The notes beneath the pieces are model-generated. The model was not told the DNA's origin and did not search any database. It saw only the letters and a program-made list of their open reading frames with translations. This document shows, piece by piece, positions 7,993 through 26,517 of a stretch of DNA of 35,743 nt. The stretch covers positions 1 through 35,743 of the forward strand of contig LFSF01000042.1 of the NCBI GenBank assembly GCA_001512665.1. The letters are read 5' to 3'. The stretch is from Clostridiales bacterium DTU073 (lineage in GTDB: Bacteria; Bacillota; Peptococcia; DRI-13; DTU073). Each line of letters begins with the position of its first letter. The stretch's first letter is position 1. A program made the translations under genes and the position numbers.

Positions 7993-8021
7993 CACAGATT
8001 TTAACCAAGTCTCATATTATA
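7993..8021 (+). promoter_or_regulatory. Sigma-K-like promoter for the 42-residue protein gene
   Basis: CACA at 7993-7996, a 16-bp gap, then CATATTATA at 8013-8021. This fits the mother-cell sigma-K pattern (mACm, 16 bp, CATAnnnTA). The downstream paralogous gene has the same arrangement with the same spacing, which strengthens the call. The -10 overlaps the opposing candidate feoAB -10. Confidence 0.5.
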
Positions 8022-8059
8022 CCATAGATGAGTATCTCAATTAGTATGAGTGCCTCATA
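8011..8059. promoter_or_regulatory. Palindromic operator cluster with candidate feoAB promoter
   Basis: Two dyads lie 18 bp apart centre to centre: TGAGTATCTCA (8029-8039) and TATGAGTGCCTCATA (8045-8059). A further CTCAT half-site is at 8011-8015. On the minus strand TTGAGA (8035-8040) and TAATAT (8013-8018), 16 bp apart, form a plausible feoAB promoter whose -35 is covered by the dyads. A repressor binding here would block feoAB. The sequence does not match the classical Fur or DtxR consensus closely enough to name the regulator. Confidence 0.55.
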
Positions 8060-8097
8060 ACTTAAATTAAGCATGTAAAGAAAAGGAGGATCTATTT

Positions 8098-8226
8098 ATG
8101 GTTGATGTATCTAGCAGCTGTGGCTTCAATAATTTTTGTTGCCCTCGTAGCAATTTTTCCACCTTATTTTTAGTAATTCTGCTCCTTTTACTGTTTCCCG
8201 GATTTTTTAATAACAACTTCTTTTAA
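8098..8226 (+). CDS. 42-residue Cys-containing hydrophobic protein, paralogue of the next gene
   Basis: I do not recognise a named family. The product starts with a short polar part with Cys8, Cys14 and Cys15, followed by a membrane-length hydrophobic segment (residues about 21-37) and an Asn-rich end. GGAGGA lies 7 bp before the ATG, so translation is well supported despite its size. The tail 'NFSTLFLVIL' plus 'LLLFPGFFNNN' is almost identical to the C-terminus of the 117-residue protein encoded at 8354, so the two arose by duplication. The upstream sigma-K-like promoter suggests expression in the mother cell late in sporulation, with the product as a small coat- or membrane-associated protein. 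That role is inference. Confidence 0.8.
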   Translation: MVDVSSSCGFNNFCCPRSNFSTLFLVILLLLLFPGFFNNNFF

Positions 8227-8237
8227 AGCCAATTTTC

Positions 8238-8268
8238 CAAGGACCTCTTTAGAGGTCCTTGCTTCTTT
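8238..8268 (+). terminator. Hairpin after the 42-residue protein gene
   Basis: CAAGGACCTCT / AGAGGTCCTTG (8238-8248, 8251-8261) can form a near-perfect stem. The following tract is CTTCTTTC, a poor T run, so termination may be partial. Confidence 0.6.
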
Positions 8269-8279
8269 CATCACATTGT

Positions 8280-8308
8280 CACCACTAAGGGACAAGATTC
8301 ATATAATA
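8280..8308 (+). promoter_or_regulatory. Sigma-K-like promoter for the Cys-Pro-rich protein gene
   Basis: CACC at 8280-8283, 16 bp, then CATATAATA at 8300-8308. This matches the promoter at 7993-8021 in element sequence and spacing. A sigma-A reading (TTGTCA 8276-8281, TATAAT 8302-8307) would need a 20-bp spacer, which is unfavourable. Confidence 0.5.
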
Positions 8309-8353
8309 ATGCAGGTTCGTTAATTATTAAGCAAAATAAAGGAGGAAAAATAA

Positions 8354-8707
8354 ATGAATGATTTTATGAAAACTGAGGGGAACAATTGTCCTAATAACTG
8401 CCCCAATCCTTGCCCATGTCCCTGCCCCCCTAGTCCTTGTCCTGGTCCCTGTCCGGGTTTTGCACCTGTTTTCAGTCCTTTCTCCGGCTCAGGCAATTGT
8501 CCCGGAATGTGTCCTGGCAGTTGTCCCGGAATGTGTCCCGGTTTTGGAACAAGTGAAATAGCTCAATTCGGTTGTCCTTGTCCCGGAACTGGTTTTATAG
8601 GCGCTCCGTTTTTTGGTGCACGTAGAAACTTTTCTACATTATTCTTAGTAATATTAATCCTGTTACTGTTCCCCGGTTTCTTTAATAACAACTGTGGCTG
8701 CTTTTAG
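8354..8707 (+). CDS. Cys-Pro/Gly-rich repeat protein with hydrophobic C-terminus
   Basis: No known function is recognised. The 117-residue product has 15 cysteines, and the first 13 are each followed by proline (CP, CPGP, CPGM and CPGF units) in residues about 12-77. After a short linker comes a hydrophobic helix (about 93-108) and a final NCGCF. The C-terminal 25 residues are nearly the same as in the 42-residue neighbour. GGAGG lies 8 bp before the ATG. Possible roles are a disulfide-cross-linked spore coat protein (favoured by the sigma-K-like promoter) or a metal- or heme-binding surface protein (CP motifs, feoAB beside it). Both are inference. A strong hairpin follows. Confidence 0.8.
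   Translation: MNDFMKTEGNNCPNNCPNPCPCPCPPSPCPGPCPGFAPVFSPFSGSGNCPGMCPGSCPGMCPGFGTSEIAQFGCPCPGTGFIGAPFFGARRNFSTLFLVILILLLFPGFFNNNCGCF
8497..8538 (+). repeat. In-gene tandem repeat, 24-bp period
   Basis: TTGTCCCGGAATGTGTCC occurs at 8497-8514 and exactly again at 8521-8538. The unit encodes CPGMCPGS/CPGMCPGF, an eight-codon period, so the protein probably grows and shrinks by slippage. Confidence 0.85.
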
Positions 8708-8717
8708 CTTATAAAAA

Positions 8718-8753
8718 AAGAAGGAGACGGCAAAATGTAGCTGTCTCCTTCTT
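8718..8753. terminator. Bidirectional intrinsic terminator
   Basis: AAGAAGGAGAC (8718-8728) pairs with GTCTCCTTCTT (8743-8753). On the minus strand the stem is followed by a run of eight T, making it a strong terminator for the alcohol dehydrogenase gene. On the plus strand the tail is CTTTATC, adequate for the Cys-Pro-rich gene. Confidence 0.85.
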
Positions 8754-26184: not shown

Positions 26185-26517
26185 CATATTAATTTTATTC
26201 TCATCGATTAACACAACCGAATAAATACTATCTTTAAAGCAATGAAAAGAAGAGTAAGCAAAGAGATACGCTACAGAGAGCCCGAATTGCTGAGAACGGG
26301 TACGGAAGGCTTTGCTGAAGATGGTCTTGGAGCAGCGCCCCGACTGCATATTTTTATGAAATATGCACAGGCGGCGACGGGAGCGCCCGTAACAGCGCAG
26401 GAGTATTGATTGTATTGTACTCTCAAAGGTCCATATCGTAAGATATGGGCAAAACAAGGTGGTACCACGAAGCAAATTGCTCTCGTCCTTGATGAATTCA
26501 TCAAGGACGTTTTTTTT
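26185..26517 (+). promoter_or_regulatory. T-box leader (tRNA-Met-sensing riboswitch) controlling metNIQ
   Basis: A transcription-attenuating leader that binds uncharged tRNA. The conserved T-box AACAAGGTGGTACCACG is at 26453-26469. Its TGGT would pair with the ACCA end of a tRNA with discriminator A. Stem I is recognised by AGAGATACGCT and AGAGAG followed by 'GCTGAGAACGGG'. The specifier is most simply ATG (26321-26323) in the context GAAG-ATG-GTC, matching methionine and the transporter downstream. The terminator at 26484-26517 competes with the antiterminator. It fills the 473-bp gap between the tRNA and metN; bases 26066-26149 hold nothing I recognise. Confidence 0.92.
26484..26517 (+). 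terminator. Attenuator terminator of the T-box
   Basis: The palindrome CGTCCTTGATGAA / TTCATCAAGGACG (26484-26496, 26497-26509) is followed by eight T. The bases at its centre must form the loop. It lies 21 bp before metN. Confidence 0.9.

Follow-up and report, generated by a model that had tools for sequence, protein, structure and literature searches.

A previously undescribed family of small hydrophobic-tailed proteins with sigma-K-type promoters in one order of spore-forming Clostridia

Two adjacent genes of the source genome encode members of a previously undescribed protein family that is conserved and multicopy in one bacterial order, and the genes of this family carry a sigma-K-type promoter. 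On balance, this order-restricted family probably consists of tiny mother-cell proteins that cross the membrane once, are made late in sporulation in dependence on sigma-K and have variable heads. Spore envelopes evolve fast, and many of their lineage-specific parts remain unannotated, as profile libraries miss proteins of such small size. In the present case, sequence alone defines a late-sporulation gene family, through its conserved tail and promoter, in an order that is mostly uncultured; this suggests that tiny hydrophobic sigma-K proteins arose or diverged repeatedly among spore-formers.

Two window genes and their sigma-K-type promoters

The window, i.e. the whole stretch of DNA analysed, is the complete contig C15 (35,743 bases) of a 1.67-Mb genome in 52 contigs that is 96% complete. 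Two plus-strand genes lie between feoA/feoB on one side and an iron-type alcohol dehydrogenase gene on the other, all of these neighbours being on the minus strand and named by eye from sequence. Gene 1 (8098..8226) encodes a 42-aa short form, MVDVSSSCGFNNFCCPRSNFSTLFLVILLLLLFPGFFNNNFF, characterized as an open reading frame, by profile search and by an AlphaFold model. Gene 2 (8354..8707, plus strand) encodes a 117-aa long form, in which a Cys-Pro-rich head with 15 cysteines, 13 of them in Cys-Pro, precedes the C-terminal hydrophobic tail common to both proteins. The two 22-residue tails (NFSTLFLVILLLLLFPGFFNNN and NFSTLFLVILILLLFPGFFNNN) are identical at 21 residues and their coding DNA matches at 54 of 66 nucleotides. 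Eleven of the 22 codons differ, ten synonymously and one by replacement, indicating that the tails are old, selected coding sequences and not a recent copy. The reading frames, their coordinates, the cysteine counts and the near-identical tails all agree with the original prediction. Its description of slippage-prone repeats in the long gene holds only weakly, as the tandem arrays (8429-8458 and 8492-8541) are short, with 12- and 24-base units.

Ribosome-binding sites (GGAGG) are found on the plus strand at 8085..8089 for gene 1 and at 8341..8345 for gene 2. A hairpin scan detected an intrinsic-terminator-like structure 3' of gene 1 (8238..8261, plus strand), and a hairpin 3' of gene 2 (8718..8753, plus strand), seen by eye and not reported by the scan, is a possible terminator. 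Since each gene has its own promoter motif and ribosome-binding site, and a terminator-like hairpin follows gene 1, the genes appear to be transcribed separately. Elsewhere in the window, a T-box leader (RF00230, 102 bits; 26233-26493, plus strand) lies 5' of an ABC transporter operon, which by eye looks like a MetNIQ-like methionine importer.

Motif search placed a sigma-K-type promoter before gene 1 at 7993..8021 (plus strand; (G)CACA-N16-CATATTATA), and a second before gene 2 at 8280..8308 (plus strand; (T)CACC-N16-CATATAATA). Both conform to CACM-N16-CATANNATA, that is, to the predicted CAC(A/C)-N16-CATAT(T/A)ATA. The Bacillus subtilis sigma-K consensus comprises KCACM and GCATANNNTA (table, PMC3416734), and its 5-nt and 10-nt elements are spaced by 15 +/- 1 bp (PMC517825). 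Written in this frame, the window sites are GCACA-N15-TCATATTATA and TCACC-N15-TCATATAATA; they contain both elements at the published spacing and deviate in having T, not G, before CATA. The strict pattern CACM-N16-CATANNATR occurs twice in the window, exactly at the two gene promoters (expected 0.04). The whole genome contains only one further occurrence, three in total, and none of a control pattern. The genome encodes sigma-K itself (TIGR02846, 347 bits against a curated cut-off of 298.65), together with further sigma matches read as sigma-E, -G and -F, and spoIVA. As judged from sequence, control of the two window genes by sigma-K is strongly supported and very likely.

Conservation and distribution of the tail family

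A third paralogue of 38 aa with a GTG start is encoded on contig C17 of the same genome. The profile built from the three paralogues retrieved homologues throughout families f1-f7 of the source order, with two to five copies in many genomes and the consensus MAExxxPGxGxxYxGRxGFxILFLVILILLLFPGFFGGxGY. One relative, G007, whose 3.8-Mb genome forms a single contig, carries five copies. Upstream regions of 28 homologues, pairwise less than 70% identical, were gathered via protein homology alone, so that promoter conservation among them is an independent test of the sigma-K claim. The motif AC-N16/17-CATANNNT(A/G) was present in 23 of the 28, compared with a mean of 0.2 and a maximum of 2 in 200 dinucleotide shuffles. 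The spacer between AC and CATA measured 17 bases in 23 of 25 sites of the redundant set, and the profile for (C/A)AC(A/C/T)-N-CATA was sharp, with 19 regions at 16 bp and at most four at any other length. From the end of the -10 element to the chosen start codon, distances were 35-111 nt (median 47). In C. difficile, the -35 element is ATA for sigma-E and AC for sigma-K (PMC3789822); the sigma-E form (ATA/CATACA) was found in 0/28 of the same regions. The suggestion that homologues would share the sigma-K-like spacing is thus borne out, and the pattern fits the published consensus, is conserved before homologues and occurs in a genome that encodes sigma-K.

Across 398 genomes sampled from the phylum, matches at E<=1e-4 came only from members of the source order. 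A codon pattern for the tail core yielded 106 stretches in 84,980 species genomes, a search that is not a full census because the pattern restricts the codons; translations with the right context and C-terminal end came only from uncultured MAGs named 'Peptococcaceae', 'Clostridia' or 'Firmicutes'. Peptide search of genome contigs with a 27-residue hydrophobic query gave no confirmed relative, probably because E 1e-3 is out of reach for a query so short. The two window proteins and 20 homologues had no usable match in Pfam or NCBIfam. Weak hits to OapA_N and DUF3309 (best 2e-4 and 7e-5), whose models are short and hydrophobic, were dismissed as compositional. Comparison with PDB sequences returned one chance-level match (E 0.058).

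Among 25 genomes of the source order, spoIVA and sporulation sigma factors are present in 19 and both are lacking in six. The tail family occurs in 13 of the 19 sporulators and in none of the six genomes without sigK and spoIVA (Fisher p 0.005, phylogeny not corrected for), a contrast confounded by phylogeny since all six non-sporulators belong to one family, f8, whose three sporulators are also without the tail. Abundant homologues in non-spore-formers, which would have refuted the original prediction, were not seen, and the claim of a new family in spore-forming Clostridia is supported; no Pfam or NCBIfam family fits. In six sporulators of the order no convincing copy is present, so sporulation as such does not require the family. 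The gene dpaA, tried as a sigma-K control, scored above the cut-off in no genome of the order. Within f8, both sporulation sigma factors and spoIVA are absent from G019-G024 and kept by three relatives, an apparent loss of sporulation.

Membrane anchor, long forms and proposed role

The tail reaches a Kyte-Doolittle maximum of 2.5 (17-residue mean). Lys or Arg stands within ten residues before the hydrophobic core in 29 of 32 homologues, and any charge follows the core in 3 of 32. AlphaFold predicts one helix at residues 17-32, with pLDDT of about 89 over residues 21-30 and a low overall value of 66.5. A hydrophobic helix flanked by Arg in this way points towards membrane anchoring, and the tail is likely a C-terminal membrane-spanning helix that serves as the anchor.

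Three genera of family f1 encode long forms, whose heads are rich in Cys, Gly and Pro, namely in the window (117 aa, 15 Cys), in G004 (124 aa, 7 Cys) and in G001 (158 aa, 11 Cys). Their heads vary freely between genera and the tail is constant. In each of the three, the long form has a short form as its neighbour, and the divergent feoA/feoB genes lie next to the pair. Any Cys is found in 20 of 32 homologues, hence cross-linking cannot be a general function of the family and may be a specialised trait confined to long forms. In G004, a 170-aa rubrerythrin/ferritin-like protein adjoins the pair (L148:6508-7020), and in G001 (L149) a CotF-domain gene and a YmaF gene lie near it.

Among known proteins, YjcZ (PF09680) of B. 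subtilis is tiny, with a Gly/Tyr-rich N terminus and a hydrophobic C-terminal half. The tail family resembles it in its tiny size and sigma-K-type promoter, while the motif LFLVILILLLFPGFF, the Arg flank and a Cys-Pro long form are, to our knowledge, not described for YjcZ. The gene yjcZ belongs to the sigma-K regulon (PMC517825). The PF09680 profile matched none of 20 tail-family members at E<=1, and in 100 relatives it matched no genome of the source order and gave one weak match outside it, the B. subtilis control being detected. By analogy, the best reading is that the tail proteins would work like YjcZ-type tiny sigma-K proteins, with a variable and sometimes Cys-Pro-rich head. They probably serve the spore envelope.

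In the proposed mechanism, sigma-K would switch on the tail genes in the mother cell at a late stage of sporulation, and the tail would span the membrane once with Arg on its N-terminal side. By the positive-inside rule, the head would then stay in the mother-cell cytoplasm, the site of coat assembly. The tails may reside in the outer forespore membrane or be packed into the coat, and short and long forms may pack together via their common tail. The Cys-Pro heads of the long form could conceivably be cross-linked, by analogy with other Cys-rich spore proteins; their oxidation during the death of the mother cell would create disulfides that link the membrane or inner coat with the outer layers of the envelope. 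More speculatively, a lineage-specific tail-anchored set with exchangeable heads (Gly-Tyr, Cys-Pro or charged) on one tail in the outer forespore membrane might form a sigma-K-timed membrane-to-coat scaffold. If true, such a scaffold would have no known counterpart in Bacillus or C. difficile.

The Cys-rich long form also recalls CdeC, CsxA and CotY/ExsY-type spore-surface proteins, which self-assemble, with disulfides implicated in the case of CdeC (PMC7677010; PMC7333573). Accordingly, the family might instead comprise self-assembling coat or exosporium proteins like CdeC or CsxA, with the tail as a packing segment in place of a membrane anchor and the Gly/Tyr or Cys-Pro heads as a cross-linked layer. 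Many homologues are indeed Gly/Tyr-rich at the N terminus with Tyr at the end; however, in length, hydropathy and Arg flank the tail corresponds to a transmembrane helix, and most short members consist of little beyond the tail. The window cysteines lie in CP/CPG repeats ahead of a hydrophobic tail, unlike those of the known proteins, and searches of Pfam, NCBIfam and PDB sequences gave no significant match to those proteins. This alternative is considered unlikely.

Less probable still is that these are membrane peptides under sigma-K that act late in some other role, such as germination, mother-cell lysis or metal handling via the Cys head. The single-pass form would suit such a role, a Cys-Pro head could bind metal, and in three genera feoAB lies divergently beside the pair. 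Nevertheless, synteny alone is no functional link, most members are not known near feo and many are without Cys. Tiny, hydrophobic and multicopy proteins may equally bring to mind toxic peptides of the type I toxin kind, an explanation that is very improbable here given the 90-residue heads of long forms and the conserved sigma-K promoter; PHROGs gave no match, and a search of the window for Rfam antitoxin RNA found none. Anchored mother-cell membrane proteins serving the spore envelope remain the preferred interpretation.

Related small-protein families and other sigma-K-like sites

An unnamed partner family with the core SYAKAFGI(V/A)FLIIFLLLFFPGIGVSSS adjoins tail genes in several genomes. 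It is represented at G000:C17:28921-29244 (L150:6922-7245) in the source genome, and also at L015, L017, L018, L022, L024, L031, L032 and L036. An AC-N16/17-CATAG(A/G/T)ATA-type site lies upstream of all nine copies read, two of which are near-identical. In another family of the phylum, at least five tandem proteins of 32-33 aa beginning MGFFGGKGYSSLVFLIILVLLIFDGKLFYS are encoded on the minus strand of L040 (G082:C7, 1354-2596), with a ferritin-like gene nearby and an AC-N16/17-CATAGTATA site upstream of one array head. Like the tail family, they have a Gly/aromatic start, a hydrophobic FLIIL core and a multicopy array, but they are without FP and the GG-Y end and reach only E ~0.003-0.006 to the tail profile. 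The array is a possible distant analogue.

A broader sigma-K-like motif gave 27 sites in the source genome against 14 for a control pattern. Well-placed sites precede all three tail genes, the SYAKAFGI partner, a NUDIX protein and a 210-aa protein, and others stand before a Cys-rich 258-aa protein and a protein with LysM, two peptidoglycan-binding domains and BsuPI. The latter (G000:C50:17255; L202) begins 37 nt past its sigma-K-like site and is a candidate spore-envelope protein.
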